DNA of 64,000 nt from Pomacea canaliculata (lineage: Eukaryota > Mollusca > Gastropoda > Architaenioglossa > Ampullariidae). Shown in pieces: positions 6,874-63,076 of the stretch (position 1 is the first letter of the stretch; each line of letters starts with the position of its first letter). Under the pieces are notes generated by a model. It did not search any database. It was not told where the DNA came from and saw only the letters and a program-made list of their open reading frames with translations. The stretch spans positions 10,807,042-10,871,041 of the forward strand of contig NC_037590.1 of assembly GCF_003073045.1 (NCBI RefSeq), given 5' to 3'. The position numbers and the translations under genes were made by a program.

Positions 6874-7337
6874 TCCTACGTACCTGCTTTGTGCTTCGAC
6901 TGCTGCAACATTTTCCTCGTCTCCGAGGATGTGCAGTCGATTGTGAGCTGATGCAAGTGGTTCAAATTGGTAAAATTGAACATTATTCATGGGCCATCTC
7001 GATAGTTAATCACTTTGGAGATCACAAATCCAACTAAGAGACACCACCGATCACTATCCTAGCAATGACCACAGACACTTCCTGTCGTTTGTGACGTCAC
7101 AAAAGACTCGTCTGCTTGACTCATCTCGGAAGCTATCGTAGATACTCGCGGAAGGACACAAGGGTCGATTTCACTGGATTTTTTCGATTTTATAAACATC
7201 GGCAACCGAAATAGTGCTAATAAGTGGTAATTAAGTGAGAAACGAATCCTTTATTTCTCCTGTATCGCTCTCGTGCTCTGTAATTCTAACTAAATCTATT
7301 TTTGAAACGTTTGACTGTCGCCACAGCCTTATCACTA

Positions 7338-7356
7338 CCCTTTAGTATCCCTTTAA
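7338..7356 (-). repeat. Kolobok right TIR and TTAA duplication
   Basis: CCCTTTAGTATCCCT followed by TTAA, an exact inverted match to the left end. The second copy of this end, near 11785-11805 in the right contig, is corrupted. Confidence 0.9.
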
Positions 7357-9857
7357 AGACATGCGGTTTCATTTCGCATCTGGACCTCGATGGTGGCGCT
7401 GCATTGACATGCAGTTTGGACCAGCACCAGAACTGAGTGCACATCGAATCGCTATAAATGTCACAATACTGAACCACTTCAAACATATTTTGGTAACAAT
7501 AGGCATGAAAAACAGTGCATTTATTTATCAGCTATGACTTTGGGGAAAATCAGATAACGGTCGTTTTGCAGTTATGGACAGTTTAACACGCAGTAAGCAG
7601 AGGCAGAGAGAATAAAAAGTATCTTAAGCGGGTTTGATTAGTGAGAGTTTTATAAACAGGACACATAGCTATTGCACGTGGTGACTGGGTCATTTTTGGG
7701 ATGTGACATGAGCTATGTATGGTTTTTTAGTTGCCACACGTGTTTGTTTTGTTTTTAGAGTGACATATTGTTTGACAAAGTGGTTAGATTAAGCTCTTTA
7801 TTTTGGTTGAAGGTGGGAGGGGGTGCAGTTATTTATTTTCTGTCGACCTGTACCGAAACGCGTATGTGACAGTAAGTGGGATGGTCAATGAATATTGTAC
7901 ATCACATTAACGACCTGTGAGATGATCTCGACTGCATCAGTACGATGAAATGGATGGGATGGTGGAAGGTGAACACAGTAAGAAAGAGATCTAACGTCCA
8001 AGGTTTGTGGATGGTGTTAACACAACTGACGAGGACCCTCGCCCTTGACCCTCCCCTCGCGACCCGACTACCTCTCGCCTGGCCAATTGTGCTTGGGTTG
8101 CCTCTTCCCGTCGCCGGACGTCGCTGTATGCACGCCCAGGCGCTGTTAGCAATCACGACCGGACACCGCGGACATGTTGCGCGAGGTTGCACAGTTGCAT
8201 TAAAGTGAGAGAGATTAGGCGGCACGGTATGTTTGGGAACTTGCCTGCCTCCCGTTGCAGCCGCGCGCAGTAATATGATGATTATAGACGGAACTGATCG
8301 ATCAGCACGCGCAAAGTCCCAGGGAGGGAGGAAAACCAGGGGAGCTGAGGAAGATGGGGGGGAGGGGTAGGGCGTGGTGGGATGAGGGCGGCAACCTCTG
8401 CTGACTGACACAACAAGGGGGCGAGAAGCACGCCGCCACGGTGCGTGGAGAACGAGGGCGATCTGTCCCCCGGTTGGAGTACCATGGTTGATTGGCGACG
8501 GCGAGTCTGTGATCCGTGGTGATGGTGGGGTCCCAGCGGAGCGCACATGGCCAGTGGTGTGGGGTATTGACTTGTGGTTTTGTGGACGGAGGTTATTGTG
8601 GCCGCAGCGTGTAAACATTTAACACAGCTCCCGTCTGGTCTCTAGGGTACGGGTCTGTTGACCATTTTCATGTCGCGCTAATTAGCGTCAAGCACGCACT
8701 AGGTGATTTTTTGGGGTCGTCGAATGGGAGAGGGGAAGATGAAAAGTGAGGGTGGAGTGTGTAGTGCCGTGGGCCCTGGGGTTCTCGGAGCTCCCTCTGC
8801 TCTCTCTCTCTTAACACATGGAGATCCTAAACGTTGTTGAATTTATTTCTTTATTTTCCTGGGGCATCTGATGTGAATGTCCGCGGGGCTTTCCTGCACT
8901 TGGGTGTGGGGTGGGTGGGGGAGATTGGGGTAGGGTGGGGATTCATCTCTCACTGGTGTCCGTTATCCTATTGTGCAATATCCTATTTTTATGTGGCAGA
9001 GTCATGGAAAGAAGCAAGGCTTAAATGGTGGGCGTAGGGTGGTTCAGCATAACGAAAAGCTGGTTGATTTCTTTCTCTCAATTAGGTAGCAAGCAGTGGT
9101 GTATCTCTTCTGCAAACAAGATTCAGAGTATATACAAGCAGGAATGACCGAGCACGACGGATGGGTCTAAATTGACTGGAGGCGCACTGTAGCATTGTGA
9201 ACTTACTTGTGAAGACCTCCTAGACAATGTGTGCCCTGGGGGACTTAGTATGAACATTCCAGTTCGTCACTGATCTTTTTGTAATGTAAATTGAGTGCGT
9301 GAGTGGCGGCTATGAACTATCCCTTATCTGTTAGGGGCCGGTTGGGTCTAGAGAACAATCATTATGAGTATCAGTGAAAGAAGTGCTCGTAGAATGACTG
9401 TGAGGAGGCGCTAACAATGGCAGTGTGCATCAGGCACTGGGCGCCCTCCCCACGACGTATTACCGGTTAAGATGGAGTAACAGTTTCTGTGAGGCGAAGA
9501 AGAGAGATGCAGGCAGACAAAGATATGTAAGTTCCTGTGGCTGATGGTGTGCATCATGGGAAGGCTTCATGGAGAGCCTTCGGAAGGTGGCCGCAGAGCC
9601 ATATGATGAGCTCTGCTCTCTTTCCCGAGCGAGTAAATCTGTAAAAAAATGTAGAGGACAACAGAGTGGAAGGGGAACGAGCAGACAACAGAGTATGCTT
9701 AGTCGTTCAGTGATCGTATAAGCAGTAACACCGAGACATCACTAAACAATTTACGTGGGGACAACAGACGACAAGGCGATAAGAGGTTAATTATTCTCAC
9801 AAAAGGTAGAGAGGTTAAAACAATCAATATTGTTGCGTCCGAGGTCACTCTTAAAAA

Positions 9858-9899
<42 letters not shown>
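9858..9899. repeat. (ATT)n microsatellite, left copy
   Basis: Pure ATT run. Its counterpart in the other contig end is 13838-13873, differing in length. Confidence 0.9.
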
Positions 9900-11478
9900 G
9901 TTGAAGTTAAAAGTTAACTTCATTGGTATTGGGAGGGGAAAAAGGTTAAAGTTAGGAATAAAGCTGTAAAAATAGGTTAAAAAGAAGAAAGAAAGAAAAA
10001 AGGAGCGTGGAGTAGTTGTTGTGTGAAATTCAGGATGAGTCACGAACATAAAAATAGCCATTGAAAGTGTGTAGATGATAGAATAGGACGTCGTTTTGTT
10101 ATTTGTTTTTTGGGGTACTAGAATCAGGGGGCTAAGGTAGGGATCAGGAGTATATGCGGAAGGATTGTATGATTGTAGTTGGGCAAGGTAGGAGGATTAT
10201 GTTTTTAGGTCTGATAGGAGTGAGTAGTGGGTCTCAGTTGAGTGTAGAGAGTAGCAGTTCGCGGACGGTGGATTTTGACGGAAAAAGAGTTGGAACAGTG
10301 GGAAATATGCTCGAGAAAAGTTTGAGAGTCGTTGTGCTAATGGGTTATTCCTGAGGTTTTGCAGTGGCCCAGCAGAGCAAACCCAGGTTTTTGCGACAAG
10401 TTTCTGGTAAAAAGCATATGGACACGCGAACAGAAGGTTGCGGGAGTATAGGTGTGTGTGGTGTGTGGGGATGTGAATGACCCAGTGAGGGATGTGTGGG
10501 GTGCGGTGCGGACACCAGACTGAAACATAGTACTGTGTGCATGTTGAGTCAGCTGCTATGTTGTTGTTGTGTTGTTGTGGAGATATATGTGTTGATGTGT
10601 TTATGACTGCTCAATGTTATTACAGCACTCGCGGAATCCATGTCATAAGTTAGTTATAAACGAGAATGACTTGTGGGCGCTGCAAAATGACGAAGGTAAA
10701 AATAGAAAAAAATTGATAGTTTTTTTCCTAATCTACTCTATAAGCCCAATTCCATTGTAGTCGGAAGTAACTGCATGCTATCAAGATAGTAAAGAAAATT
10801 AATAAGTGAGAAGAAATGGGACGGTTCTAGCTATCGACAAATAGTATAGAATGTGAAAGATGAAAAAAGATCGATGAAGGGAAGACCAGAATAGATGATG
10901 AACCAGAAAGGAATGGAGATAAAAAGTAAAGTAGGTGTCTGGTGGTGTGTGTAATGAGAGATGAGGAGCTAGAGGTGATTCTGGTCCTATGTCATAGGGA
11001 TATGGATTGTGTGTCGAGGTTGCGCGATCACACCCCGGAAGTGTGTAGACAGGGTGGTTGTGGTGGGTGGTGGGGGCAATCATGAGAGCACGGTGAGATC
11101 TCTTCCTAATCGGGAGCGATAGTGGAATGGCGCAGATGGAGCGACATGTTACTTCGTGTAATCGGCCACCCGGGTTATTTAACACAGGGCTTTTCTGAGA
11201 GTCCTACATAGTATTGTTATGTCAAAGTAGAAATGAAGATAAGATTAACACTGCATCCAAGTTCCAGAACACATAACGTGAAAACAACAACGACAACAAC
11301 AAAAGGGTCAGACTGAACAAGAAGGTTACTGCCGCCGCAGGTGGGTCAAAGGGATAGTTGCCATGCAGTGGTGTTGTGTGGTGCTGGAACCCGCTTTCTT
11401 TTTCCACACATCATTTGTTTGTGTTTCTTTCCAGAAATTTAATGCAGAACTTTTTCTTGTTCTTTTGTCGTTTTAACC

Positions 11479-11578
11479 NNNNNNNNNNNNNNNNNNNNNN
11501 NNNNNNNNNNNNNNNNNNNNNNNNNNNNNNNNNNNNNNNNNNNNNNNNNNNNNNNNNNNNNNNNNNNNNNNNNNNNNN
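11479..11578. other. Assembly gap, exactly 100 N
   Basis: 100 consecutive N, the conventional placeholder for a gap of unknown size. The flanks are redundant with each other, so real missing sequence may be zero or the gap negative. Confidence 0.98.
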
Positions 11579-13833
11579 CGGAACGGACTATCAACGGTCG
11601 ATTTCACTGGATTTTTTCGATTTTTATAACAACATCGGCAAAACCGAAATAGTGCTAATAAGTGGTAGATTATAGTGAGAAACGAATCCTTTATTTCTCC
11701 TGTTCGCTTTCGTGCTCTGTATTCTAACTTATCTATTTTCGGAATACGTGTTGACTGTGCACAGCCTATCAACTCCTGTTGCCTTTTATATCCCTCTTAA
11801 TGACAATGGCGGTTTTCAATTTTCGCATCTGGACCTCGATGGTGGCTGCATTGACATGCAGTTTGGACCAGCACCAGAACTGAGTGCACATCGAATCGCT
11901 ATAAATGTCACAATACTGAACCACTTCAAACATATTTTGGTAACAATAGGCATGAAAAACAGTGCATTTATTTATCAGCTATGACTTTGGGGAAAATCAG
12001 ATAACGGTCGTTTTGCAGTTATGGACAGTTTAACACGCAGTAAGCAGAGGCAGAGAGAATAAAAAAGTATCTTGGTTTGATTAGTGATGAGTATTTATAA
12101 CAGGACACATACTATTGCACGTGTGACTGGGTCATTTTATGTGACATGTATGGTTTTTAGTTGCCACATAGAGTGACATATTGTTTGACAAAGTGGTTAG
12201 TAAGCTCGTTTATGCAGTTATTTATTCTGCGACCTGTACCGAAAACGCGTATGTGACAGTAAGTGATGGCAATGAATATTGTACATCGACATTAACGACC
12301 TGTGAGATGATCTCGCCGATCAGTCGATGAATGGTGGGCAACACAGTAAAGAAAGAGACTAACTTCCAAGGTTATGTAACACAACTGACGAGGACCTCGC
12401 CCCTTGACCCTCCCCTCCACCCGACTACCCTCCCCTGCCACTAGGTGCTCTCTTCCCGTCGCCGGACGTCGCTGTATGCACCGCGCGCTGTTAGCAATCA
12501 CGACCGGACACCGCGGACATGGGCGGCGAGGTTTGCACATTGCATAAAGTGATATTAGGCGGCACGGAGTTTGAACTGCCTGCCCTCCCAGCCGCGCGCA
12601 GATGGATGAGCAAACGGATCGATCAGCACGCGCAAAGCCCAGCGAGGCCAGGGAGGCTGAGGAAGATGGGAGGGGGAGGCTGGGGGATGAGGGGCGGCAA
12701 CCTGCTGCTGACCACAACAAGGGCGAGAAGCACGCCGCCACGGTGCGTAAGACAGTCTGTCCCCCCGAGTACCATTGATTGCACGGCGGTCTGTGATCCG
12801 CTGGAGGTGCGGGCGCCACATGGCCAGTGGTGGTGGTAGTGACTTCACGGAGGTATTGCCGCACGTGAACATTCAACACACCCCTGTCTCTAGTAACGGG
12901 TCTGTTGACCATTTTCATGTCCGCTAATTAGCGCCAAGCACGCAACTCATTTTCGTCACAATGGGGAAGGGAAGATTGAATTAGTGGGAGTGTGTACCGT
13001 GGGCCTCTTCTCCCTCCCTGCTCTCTCTCTCTTTACACACACCAAACTTAATTTATTTCTTTATTTTCCCGCATCTGTGTGTCCGTCGGCTTCCTGCCAC
13101 TCATTCATTCATCTCTCCTTCCTATCCTATCAATATCCTATTCTTTATTCAACAGAAAAAGCAAGGCTTAAATGGGCGATTCAGCATAACGAAAGCTGGT
13201 TGTTTTCTTTCTCTTCAATCCTCTCAAACAAGATTCAGAGTACAAGCAGAATACGAGCACGACGATGTCTAATGATGGACGCACTGTACAGTTGAACTTT
13301 CTTGAAAGACCTCCAACAAGTGTCCCTGTGGACTTTTGAACTCCATTCGTCACTGATCTTTTTGTAATGTAAATGAGGCGAGTGGCGGCTATGAACTAGT
13401 CCCTTATCCTCGTGTCTACAGAACAATCATTTCTGATATCACAAAGAAGTCTCTAGATTGCTGAGGAGGCGGCTCCAGTGCCATGTCTCAGCACTCCGCG
13501 CCCTCCCCACGCGTATTGAACCGGGGAAACAGTTTCTGTGGGCGGAAGAAGACAGGCTACAAAAATAAAGTTCCTGTGCTGAGGCATCATAAGCTTCATT
13601 AGAGCCTTGCAAGGCTCCATATGTATGAGCTCTGTCTCTTTCCGAGCGAGTAAATCTGTTAAAAATGTAGGGCAAAGTGGAAGGTGGAACGAGCAGACAA
13701 AGTTCTAGTCTTCACTCGTTAACAAACACCGAGGACAACTTGACAACAACACTGCAATAAAGAGGTTAATTATTTCACAAATTAAAAAGGTTAATAACAA
13801 TAAATAGTTTTGCATTCCATCAACTCTAAAAAA

Positions 13834-13837
<4 letters not shown>

Positions 13838-13873
<36 letters not shown>
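13838..13873. repeat. (ATT)n microsatellite, right copy
   Basis: Counterpart of the run at 9858-9899, with homologous flanks. Confidence 0.9.
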
Positions 13874-13874
<1 letters not shown>

Positions 13875-14947
13875 GCATGTTGAAGTAAAATGGCAAGTAA
13901 CTTCATTGGTAGGTAGGGGAAAAAGGTTAAAGTTAGGATTAAGCTGAAAATAAAAAAGAAGAAAGAAAGTAAAAGGAGTGAGTATTGTTGTGCGCAAATT
14001 CCATAGTCACGAATCATAAAAATAGCCATTAAAGTGTGAAATAAATAACGGTTTTGTTTTTGTTTTTTTGTGGAAGAAAGCCCGCTACTGAAACAGCGTG
14101 CTACACAAATATGCAATAATTGTATGTTGGAGTAGGAATTATTTGTTTAACTGATAGGAGTAAAGTGGTCGCAGTTGAGGGAAGAGCAGGCCGACAGATT
14201 GACGGAAAAAAATTGACAGGTGGAGAAATATGCCCGCAGAAAGTTTGGAGAGCTCGTTGTGCTAATGGGTTATTGCCTGAGGTGAGTGGCCCAGCAGAGC
14301 AAACCCAGGTTTTAGCGACAGTTTCTGGTAAAACAAACACCAACAGGAGTCCATGCCCAGTGTGCCTGCACCACCAGCTGATCAATACTGTCATGTTTGT
14401 CCCTCTTGTTGTTGTGTGTTTGTTGTGTGTTTTATGTTTACTGCTCTGTTTACAGCACTCGCGAACATGCAAATTATTTAACGGATGACTTGCTTCAAAA
14501 TGACTCAAATTTTAGAGCAGAAAAATTGTTTTTTCCTTAATCTCTTACAAGCCTCTTCCATGTGGTGATCGGAAGTACTGCATGCTATCAAGATAGAAAA
14601 TAAATAAAATGAAAGAAATGGACTGCACGACAAATGAAGGAATGAAAGATAAAAAGATCGAGAAGGAAAGACCAGAATAGAGATTAACCAAAAGAAAAGA
14701 TAAAAAGAAAAATTAAGTGACAGAGTGATTCTGAGCCTGTACTATGGCGTTCCCATCACACCCCGGAAGGGTGTACAGGGTGGGCAACATGAGCCCGGTA
14801 GTCTCTTCCTAATCGACAGTGGAATGCAATGGACAGCATGTACTCGTTGTAATGGCCACCCGGTATAACACAGGGCTTCTCCTACATAGTATGTGTCATG
14901 TCAAAGTAGAAATGACAGATAAAGATTGACACTGCATACAAGTTCCA

Positions 14948-14948
14948 G

Positions 14949-14990
<42 letters not shown>
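14948..14990. repeat. (ACA)n microsatellite, right copy
   Basis: A run of AAC/ACA repeats. The homologous left-contig site at about 11285-11305 has only a short interrupted run. Confidence 0.85.
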
Positions 14991-14991
<1 letters not shown>

Positions 14992-15171
14992 TATTTTCCC
15001 CCATGTCAAACAAGCTGCAGTCAGGTGCTATTTCTGAACCCGGCTTCTTTTTTTCCACACTCATTTCTGCTTCTTGTGTTTCATTCCAGAAATTTAATGC
15101 AAGAACTTTTCTTGTTTCTTTTGTCGTTTTAACCAGTTGAGACAGTGGGATGTGACAAAAATGGACCTCAC

Positions 15172-16867
15172 CTTTTTGTGGCAGCACTGGAAGGGTACGT
15201 AGAGAAACCGAATCATGTCCTTGATCCCGCAGGTGATGGTGGACAAGCCGTTGCTGGTCATGTCTTTGAGGCTGTATCCGCTGTCCCCAGCTTCCATTCC
15301 CTGTGAATGTCGTAGTTCACTGATGACCTGCAGCAGACGTGCCTGCCCTTCCGAGGGTTTCTCATCTTGGCGAGCGCCTTGCTGCTGGAGGCTGTGAGCT
15401 TTTTTACTGTCTCGTTCTTTCCTCCTGCTCTCCTGGCGGTTGACAAGTCGGGGGACGTCTAGGTCTGTCCTTGAACTTTACACTTGATGACGGCGACGAC
15501 CGCACGGCTTTCTCCGTCACCGAATCCAAGCACCACGACACGTTTCGCCCAGAGGCCTTGGGCTGCGATGTGATCGGCGACACCATGGTGACGGAGCCGG
15601 TGCTGGTGCAGCAGGCAGTGGCCTGCACAGAGAACCCTGTCGTCCCGGAAGTGCCAGGATCTTCGTCTATGCTGGCGTAATCGACAGACGGGCGAGTCAT
15701 CAATGGGTAGTTCTCCATCGTCTCGCCATCTGATTGCCTGCCTCGGTCCGATGATGACGATGTCGCCGAGGTCAACGGCGGTGCTTCTGTTTCAGGGCCC
15801 ACACCAACGTCAACCACATCACGGCCCACAGCTACATCAGCCACTTCGCGGCCCACGCCGACGTCAACCCCTCCCGGTCTGACACGAACCGCCCCCACCT
15901 CAACTTCTTCGTCTTGCCTGAGTGATGTTGCCTTGGAAACTTTCTTGACGGGGTATTTACCAAACTGTTCAGACGTCTCCTCCTCTTCATCAGTCCGGTC
16001 TACATCACAAGGCACGGGTGGTGTGTTGGCACCGTGTTTGGACACCTGCTTACTAAAGGCGTAACGGTTCAGGTCTGCAGAGGACGTGACGGTTGACTTG
16101 AAGTCTGGCACTTCTGTGATCAACGATCCCTCGCTGACATCACTCGACACGGACTGCGCTCGCCGCTTGATTGGTGGTGATGGAAAAATGGCGGCGACTC
16201 TTCGTATCCGGCAACAAAATCGTCATCATCGGTCTTGAGGCAGATGTCAGAAAGGACGGAGCTGCTGAAGCTGGAAATGACCTCGAGGTCAGGGCAGGGC
16301 GACCCGCTGCCGTCGAATGAGAGTCTGTATAGGGACACACGTCGAGGGGGGGAGCCGGCCACGGCCACGGTGCTGCTGTGGGTCGACTCCTGTCTGCTGA
16401 CCGAGGGCTTAATCTCGCTCAGCTCTGCCGACTCTCGGTTCCTGCGCTCCGGCCTCGTTTCAGCTCCGATGATGGACTGGACCGCGGAAAACCTGTCCAA
16501 AGATATCCTTCGAAATGTCCGCACGGAGGTGGGTTTCCATCACCGGAAGACTCGTGACCCCCAGACGTGTCTGAAGGTAGTGTTGGATAGTCTTCCCCTG
16601 GTGCATGCGAGGTTGACTCCCTTGGTTTGGCTGTGGGAGGTCCCACTTCGTCGTACACCAGCTCCGGACCAAGATGCCAGGGGAAAGTGACTCCGTGGGC
16701 ACCATCTCCTTCCCTCATGCTCCCTTCACGACGCTCATCCCCAAAGCAGATTCTGTCGTAAGCCATGTTGTGAGCCCCGTGGTGTGGGTTCTCCGTCCGT
16801 CGAGGCCCTGTCCCAAATATTGTCGACTTCCCGCCGCACACGTAACGGTCCCGGCCGACGATTATGG
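15172..16867 (-). CDS. Large exon of an unrecognised minus-strand gene, frame-disrupted
   Basis: About 1.7 kb open in overlapping minus-strand frames, bounded by an acceptor (CAGTCACAG|CCATAATC) and a donor (CACAAAAAG|GTGAGG). It reads in turn RDRYVCGGKSTIFGTGP, then RISLDRFSAVQSIIG with RRVSLYRLSFDGSGSP, then MSSDVSEGSLITEVPDF with NYPLMTRPSVDYASIDE, then RLVNRQESRRKERDS, ending IKDMIRFLYVPFQCCHKK. The product is Ser/Glu-rich and mostly disordered, with an imperfect GVDVGVGREVADV-type repeat. Frame changes fall near 16510, 16150 and 15440. Because it starts only 38 bp from the low-quality contig end, consensus indels are the likeliest cause; true decay is possible. I see no domain that names it. 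The cysteine-containing hydrophobic end suggests a membrane- or channel-linked cytoplasmic region, which is a guess. Confidence 0.55.
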
Positions 16868-54014: not shown

Positions 54015-56907
54015 ATGACAGAACCACAGTTTACCTACCTTAAAGATGTTCGTCCAGGAATGAAAAATCTAAACATTATTTTCATTGTAATTGAAATAGG
54101 TATGGTAATAATGTTTTACAAACTCATTCTGTGCACAGTGCTTTATTCCAGATGCATATGCATCCAACTATTCTGTGGTATTGCATTAACTTAAGAAAGA
54201 GAATACTGACATGCATACGTTAATTGACAGTACAGTTGAAAGACTGTATTATAAAGCAGCTCTGGTTACCACACTTTTAAAATGCCCACATTAATTGTAA
54301 AAACTAAAGTTTCCTGGCTGTAGTCACACAGTGGGTATTGTTGCATACATCTAGGTTGACTCTGCCAGGATGTAAGAGCTCTTAAATTGTTGATGGTGTA
54401 AAAGGCATTTATAGTACTGGAAAGTATCCTCTATGGAGAGCAGGATTTAAGACTATCTGTAGTAATTTTTTGTAGTTGATATTGAGTCACAACATCTGTT
54501 ATAGCATTGCCTTATGATTTCAGGCAAACCAAACCGCACGAAAGATGGCCATGATGTACGTACAGTGAAAGTGGCAGACAAAACAGGCTGCATGAATGTT
54601 TCAGTCTGGGATCAAATGGGAGATGCCCTGCAAACTGGTGATATATGCAAATTTTTGAAAGGGCAAGTACTTCAGTGTTTGTGCATGAATGTTTGCATCT
54701 GCATGTCATATCAGTTTATGAAGTCATATTAATTAGTTGCACTTTGAACTTTAAAATTAGTTTTTATGGATATAGTGACTGTACAGGAAAGAAATAGAAC
54801 CTCAAAAATAAATGATGATGATGGTAATAAGAAACTTGTCCCTTTCAGATCTGAAGCAGCAGTTTTACATATATGCCTTAAATGATAATAGCAAGGAGAT
54901 AAATTCTATTAGTAAAGGCCTGATGCACACAAAAGTATTAAATATTATTTTGAATAGAATAGTTAGCTCTCAAAGTAAGAATAAACAAAAACTTAGAAAG
55001 TTTAAATTTGTTGAAATTGATGGTCTGTGCCAGTGGTGTTGCATTTAAAAAAGGTTTTTCTTGTCCAGATATGCATCTTTATGGAAGGGCTGCTTGACAC
55101 TGTACACAGGAAAAAGTGGAGAAATTTGGAAGATAGGAGAGTAAGTACTTAACTGAAGGTTATGATCAATTTTATAACTAGACTCAAAGTCATTCTGTGG
55201 GTAAAAAATAAGCTAGATTCTCTTTTTAATCTCAAAACTGTTTGTCTCTAGTTTCAGTTTGGGCAGCCCAACACTTCCTGAAATGTAATTGATTTCCCTT
55301 AAGAAGACTGTTAGATGTAAAGACTATTTTTTCTGTTAGCAGTTGAGAAAGACAGCCTGTATAGATGCCACATAATTCCTTATATAAAGTATCATCTACT
55401 TTCTGTGCTGCATTTTTTCCAGATTTTGTTTGCAGTTTTCAGAGCAGCCTAATTTTAGTGAACCAAACCCTGAATATAACGTTCCAAAAACAGTAAGTTT
55501 ATTTTTGAAGTTTTGTAGGATTCTTATTTTTTAATTTATATAGCTTAGAGCCTTCTACATAAACATATACTTTGTTTCAAATGTTTAACTGCACATCTTC
55601 ACAAACGTTTAATGTTTAAGAATGGTAGTAAGAAATTATTTGGAAGCAGCATAGATGCCTGCATATACTTCATATCTGAAACAAGCTACATGACTTTTAT
55701 AAAAATATGACACATCTAAAAATACTATTAAAAATAGACATGTTTGTTTCTATTTACAAAAGATAATTTATTTAATCATTTTCATAAAAACAAAAATTTA
55801 AATCCGAGGGCAAATTGCACAACTTAATTCAAACGACCAAGTTTAACTCTTTTATTACAAGATATTTTCCAAAAAAATCCCAAAATGACATCAGTTTCTC
55901 CTGTTTTAGTCATGGAAGATTTGTGAAGGTTTATGTAAAGTGAAGGTATTTATTCAATATTTTTGAACAGTAATGAATTAAGCTTTGACATAAAATCATA
56001 CAAACATTGTCTTTAACAATATAAAACTATCTGCAGGAACAAAGTGGAAACCCAGCTCCACTAACGCATGCACCACCATTAGAGGGTGGGGAGAGTGGTG
56101 CAAACAGTAATGTTCAGGGTCCCTCGCCACATCGTCCTTCTTCCAATACAGGTGAGTATAAGACGCCAAGAGCAGAATTTTCTCTCTATAGCTATACAAC
56201 TGGAAAGGGACGCCCAGAACTGGATCCGATGGCGGGGTGTGGTTGCAGCCCTATGCTCCACTGGGGGCGAATAGGAACAAGAAGCTATACAATGCATTTT
56301 ATACTTATAGAATTCATTCTATAGCTATGCAATTCATTCTATACGTATATAATACATTTATACAATTCTATAAGTATAGAATGGATTCTATAGCTACACA
56401 TTTTATTCTATACTTATAGATTGCATTCTATAGTTATATATTTCATTATATACTTATAGAATGCATTCTATAGTTAGAGAGAGAAAAACTTGGTAAAAAC
56501 CAAAGGATTTCATTTATACTATACTCAGAAATTGCTATTCATTTTATATATACAATTCCATTCTGTGGATACGTAATGCACTCTAGCTATACATTTCAAT
56601 TGTATACTCATAGAATGAATTATATAACTACAGAGTTGAAACGAAATGCATACGGAACGAAGCTGGCTCATTTGTATGAAGGGGCAAGAAAGTCAAAAGA
56701 TCTTTCTCATGCTAACCCCACCCTACTCGAAACAAAGAATCTTTTTCTTTTTCTGATCATTGTTGATGGTCTTTTGAAAGGTAGTTTTACTCTGCAGGTC
56801 CTGGGAATGGCAATGCATTTGTGCAGCGAATGCCGCAACCACCACTTCTGGGAGGTCAGGGCAGGGGACAAGGCCGTGCCTCCCAAGTGCAGCGTCCACG
56901 CAGATGA
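54015..56907 (+). CDS. NABP1/2: SOSS complex subunit B (single-stranded DNA-binding OB-fold protein; 6 exons)
   Basis: Nuclear ssDNA-binding subunit of the SOSS complex, acting in double-strand-break signalling and repair. Exons: 54015-54099, 54524-54662, 55069-55140, 55423-55492, 56037-56151 and 56798-56907, with phases closing to 196 residues (human SOSS-B1 211). OB-fold matches: [63 protein letters not shown], then [14 protein letters not shown]. This is followed by a Pro/Gly/Gln/Arg-rich tail as in the family. Intron 2 starts GCAAGT rather than GT. The exon boundary between KG and YASLW and the required phase force this GC-AG reading. Vertebrates have two paralogues; a single invertebrate copy is presumed pre-duplication. 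It is convergent with beta-catenin. Confidence 0.95.
56284..56635. repeat. AT-rich palindromic minisatellite in SOSS-B intron 5
   Basis: About ten diverged copies of a unit like TTCTATACTTATAGAATGCA alternating with ATTCTATAGTTATA, so neighbouring units are near inverted complements (TATAGAAT / ATTCTATA). Copies are dense to about 56480 and reappear near 56520-56635. Likely a cruciform-prone simple array; no coding value. Confidence 0.75.

Positions 56908-58804: not shown

Positions 58805-63076
<4,272 letters not shown>

Follow-up and report, generated by a model that had tools for sequence, protein, structure and literature searches.

In the stretch of Pomacea canaliculata DNA analysed here (the window, 64,000 nucleotides, C1:10807042-10871041), two similar blocks of several kilobases stand on either side of a run of Ns, which raises the question of whether the snail carries a tandem duplication at this place or whether the assembly has written one sequence twice. 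The apparent tandem repeat is, as we read the sequence, almost certainly an unmerged overlap of contig ends, an assembly artefact in the form of a false duplication where two contigs were joined into a scaffold; as such it is no biological feature and belongs to a known kind of assembly error. On this reading about 3.5 kb on the longest chromosome of the public reference would be present in two versions, one of them badly damaged, with spurious repeats, false copy-number calls and poor read mapping as possible effects.

Geometry of the two copies

The sole N run of the window is 100 long and divides the locus into the following parts:

7149-11478, + strand: left copy (L), the final 4330 bases of the left contig, aligning end to end with 11579-15134
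11479-11578, no strand: 100-N scaffold join; the N run itself is seen, its fixed size is deduced from the assembly totals
11579-15134, + strand: right copy (R), the initial 3556 bases of the right contig, aligning end to end with L

The first-pass annotation had described two collinear copies in the same orientation around the gap, the left one about 770 bp longer, and both ending at an identical point. End-to-end alignment confirms this arrangement: the global alignment of L and R reaches a score of 4780 with 3313 matches, compared to 753, 756 and 796 for three mononucleotide shuffles of L, and the measured difference in length is 774 bases. The common end point is likewise present, with GTCGTTTTAACC occurring twice on the + strand of the window, at 11467 and 15123, and ending at 11478, the edge of the gap, and at 15134. 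As our own criterion for an unmerged overlap we had chosen homology exactly up to both contig ends, and the homology indeed extends to the final base of L, directly before the N run, and to the initial base of R, directly after it. The start of R falls inside a repeat element, and L carries the same element further upstream.

The geometry would be identical if the locus were a true tandem duplication, ~3.5 kb long and of very recent date, as both arrangements read X-U-gap-U'-Y. Being such a duplication would then have made the locus hard to assemble, the assembly would have broken exactly at the junction, and the noise in L would be that of a real but poorly sequenced second copy. The high identity of the two copies where both are clean (see below) would also suit a young duplication. 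However, the break would have to fall on the very base of the junction, and the noise would have to be limited to those sides of the contigs that face the gap; we consider this course of events very improbable.

Differences between the copies and their polarity

The evidence on how the copies differ, and on which of them departs from the genomic sequence, comes from the following parts of the locus:

7159-7334, + strand: dispersed-repeat copy in L, whose 177-bp core served as a ruler (99.4% to the core); the element continues upstream of 7149
7398-7613, + strand: 216-base stretch, clean in both contigs and identical to R 11845-12060
7630-11420 (boundaries approximate), + strand: insertion-rich, G/T-biased noisy part of L, with 906 extra bases in 363 events
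11579-11849, + strand: noisy head of R, where the dispersed repeat is present in truncated form (89.2% to its core, matched at 11592-11771); 239 matches, 6 mismatches, 9 extra bases in L and 26 in R
14773-14841, + strand: R stretch with a diverged homologue on C6 (81% over 69 bases), used to polarise extra bases

The alignment of L and R contains 485 indel events and 101 mismatches (27 transitions, 74 transversions). With four different choices of gap costs, the mismatches number 101, 126, 46 or 0, and indels clearly outnumber them under every alignment setting tried (mismatch range 0-126). The dense small indels noted earlier are thus real, but they are lopsided, L having 916 extra bases in 372 events and R only 142 in 113 events. 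The description of two noisy copies holds in that noise is present, while its evenness does not: most errors lie in L, the noise in R is concentrated in the first ~270 bases, and the two copies have an exact run of 216 bases in common. Downstream of the noisy head of R, the zone from 11850 to 12073 is clean in both copies, all 223 aligned bases agreeing (0 mismatches) with a single 1-base indel, an extra base in R. Between R 12074 and 15070 there are 2792 matches, 94 mismatches, 906 extra bases in L and 111 in R, and the final zone, R 15071-15134, has 59 matches, 1 mismatch, 1 extra base in L and 4 in R. On L, the noise begins at ~7.62 kb and continues towards the gap, except that the last ~60 bases of L agree well with R.

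The base composition of the insertions in L constitutes a strong strand bias. The 906 extra bases at 7630-11420 comprise 438 G, 255 T, 165 A and 48 C, so that on the + strand 48% are G, 28% T, 18% A and 6% C (G+T = 76%). GC skew is correspondingly 0.292 for L 7630-11478 and 0.033 for its counterpart in R, compared to a range of -0.114 to 0.089 elsewhere in the window (97 overlapping 3.8-kb windows). Locally, L has gained ~0.30 bases per R base, and its total difference amounts to ~0.37. At face value, a comparison of single-base extras with their neighbours (53 of 203 equal to a neighbour, 88 expected) does not show homopolymer-type insertion in L; we give this test no weight, because the placement of gaps in the alignment biases such counts.

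Two sets of related sequences outside the locus indicate which copy is wrong in which place. The start of the L/R homology lies within a dispersed repeat, and the 43 matches listed for this repeat comprise 3 at the locus and 40 elsewhere. In the 16 outside copies that we fetched, the best-scoring of these 40, the 177-base core is identical throughout, which suggests a recent spread of the element in the snail. L differs from this core by one 1-base gap only, while R departs from it by 5 mismatches and 12 gap openings, so that R is the noisy copy at the head of the right contig. Towards the other end, the diverged homologue on C6 matches R with 57/70 identity and one gap, and no match of it to L was obtained at E <= 0.01; within the 69 bases that this test spans, the extra bases therefore belong to L. 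Judged by these comparisons, each contig is noisy on its gap-facing side, with the exception of approximately the last 60 bases of L.

Long pieces of L and R show 76-81% identity by BLAST, a value that could be taken as a measure of age if the copies were an old tandem duplication or members of a diverged repeat family at 75-80% identity. This explanation deserves practically no credence, as the copies differ by indels instead of substitutions, and as 100% identity over a run of 216 bases contradicts such an age; nor did a genome search reveal another full copy. With the ruler repeat left out, R as query retrieved, besides its own sequence, two pieces of L and the C6 fragment; L as query retrieved two pieces of R besides its own sequence. 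Outside the ruler repeat, these searches with L and R thus returned no third full copy, which is no proof of a single copy, because simple repeats and very common words were skipped.

The earlier statement that no reading frame is kept was nearly right: antisense open reading frames of 238 and 208 residues in the two copies have one stretch of 85 alignment columns in common, at 53% identity. Neither had a Pfam match at E <= 1, and searches of the whole window gave no Rfam hit at gathering score and, with ARAGORN, no tRNA.

Probable origin of the duplicate in the assembly

The genome searched has 440,159,624 bases in 24 records. Record C24, with 15,707 bases, yields proteins recognised as mitochondrial when it is translated with the invertebrate mitochondrial code. 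The public reference is Pcan_SZ, GCF_003073045 (name as in PMC11417965), and Liu et al. 2018 (PMC6129957) give for P. canaliculata 440,071,717 assembled bases in 745 contigs, a scaffold N50 of 31,531,291, an N90 of 23,662,357 and a mitochondrial contig of 15,707 bp. With these figures, 440,159,624 - 440,071,717 - 15,707 leaves 72,200, or 722 x 100, and placing 745 contigs in 23 nuclear records requires just 722 joins. From these totals we infer that every join consists of 100 N, one such join having been seen here, and the same arithmetic would put the joins of like kind in the assembly at about 722.

In the published procedure, PacBio reads were assembled with SMARTdenovo, single base errors were corrected by Pilon on the basis of Illumina reads, and LACHESIS was used for scaffolding; alternative contigs were removed only if they were shorter than 200 kb and mostly alignable at > 80% (PMC6129957). 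As described there, this filter was limited to whole contigs < 200 kb, and overlaps of a few kilobases at the ends of larger contigs would consequently be left untrimmed. In the sequence of events that we propose, two neighbouring contigs probably both end in one and the same piece of the genome, ~3.5 kb long, and these ends would have been too noisy for their overlap to be recognised; Hi-C scaffolding would therefore have put the contigs next to each other, separated by a spacer fixed at 100 N, so that the piece now appears twice. The noisy parts would represent long-read sequence with thin coverage and hardly any polishing, and the snail itself would possess one copy only. Overlapping ends left unmerged would explain the extension of homology exactly to both ends, the start of R within a repeat and the excess of indels, and equally the noise on the gap-facing sides and the perfect agreement where both contigs are clean. 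The first-pass annotation had likewise proposed overlapping, unpolished contig ends, and the geometry, the indel-dominated spectrum, the gap-facing noise, the identity in the clean zone and the published method all support its proposal. The quality of L speaks against the overlap reading: its difference of ~0.37 lies above the read filter (error > 0.2) given in PMC6129957, and L would need to come from an exceptionally poor part of a read whose average error was low enough for this filter. Nor is L a typical raw read: its ~0.30 insertions per R base contrast with the insertion-poor profile of one real raw CLR data set, for which a table in PMC5964698 lists insertions at 2.9%, deletions at 8.8% and substitutions at 5.0%.

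Both ends most likely derive from one haplotype. Copies on one scaffold, an assembly gap between them (here the 100 N at 11479-11578) and read errors that leave the copies un-collapsed resemble the homotype false duplications of Ko et al. 2022 (PMC9516828), a class that is defined there by read depth and k-mer content, whereas our comparison covers the assembly sequence. Judged from the assembly, the L/R differences have the character of sequencing errors, in that they are dominated by indels, biased in base composition and error-like in comparison with the outside copies. It is conceivable, if rather unlikely, that the two ends stem instead from different haplotypes and that part of their difference is real allelic variation, in which case the locus would still be an artefact, of another sub-type. 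With copies next to each other on the two sides of a gap, and in a genome that is heterozygous, the locus would resemble the heterotype class of PMC9516828, and heterozygosity in P. canaliculata is put at 1-2% in PMC6129957. The noise-free zone, moreover, comprises only 224 bases of R, and allelic differences elsewhere would be masked. In contrast to the heterotype class, however, the 223 aligned clean bases contain no allelic differences, where 2.2-4.5 mismatches would be expected at 1-2% (chance of none ~0.11 to 0.01), and most of the difference lies in indels, those in L being biased in base composition.

Other contig ends and the rest of the window

With regard to base skew as a candidate general mark of noisy contig ends, 8 of 21 contig starts have a GC skew in their first kilobase outside the background (68 1-kb windows, range -0.181 to 0.183), but several of the 21 are visibly telomere-like or tandem repeats. 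The starts of records C20 and C8 carry CTAACC-like tandem sequence, possibly telomeric. The start of C16 is also skewed; apart from itself it is most similar to a place on C3 (71%), among numerous hits to repeats. The unplaced 46-kb record C22 has a second copy of its start (C22:1-8713) on the reverse strand of C2 (44790000-44799500). Here, C22 2198-8713 aligns with 6255 matches, 81 mismatches and 368 indel events, and C22 15-1662 with 1500 matches, 45 mismatches and 226 indel events; in the latter part, the extra bases are 78% G+T in C22 and 80% A+C in the reverse-complemented strand of C2. A G+T insertion bias like that of L is thus also present between C22 and C2, and this pair may possibly be another undetected duplicate, similar in kind but not at a gap.

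Pieces of a beta-catenin gene occupy 58805-63069 on the - strand of the window. The open reading frame at 60462-61100 (- strand) matches PDB beta-catenin chains at E 2.3e-81 and the Pfam Arm repeat, and we take those at 58805-59119 and 62809-63069, by look only, to be further exons. In a GC-rich stretch (15404-16524, - strand), two overlapping antisense open reading frames encode 248 and 134 residues, and no Pfam hit of theirs reached a curated cut-off. A tandem array with a 20/40-base unit, TATAGAATTCATTCTATACT, is found at 56283-56480.
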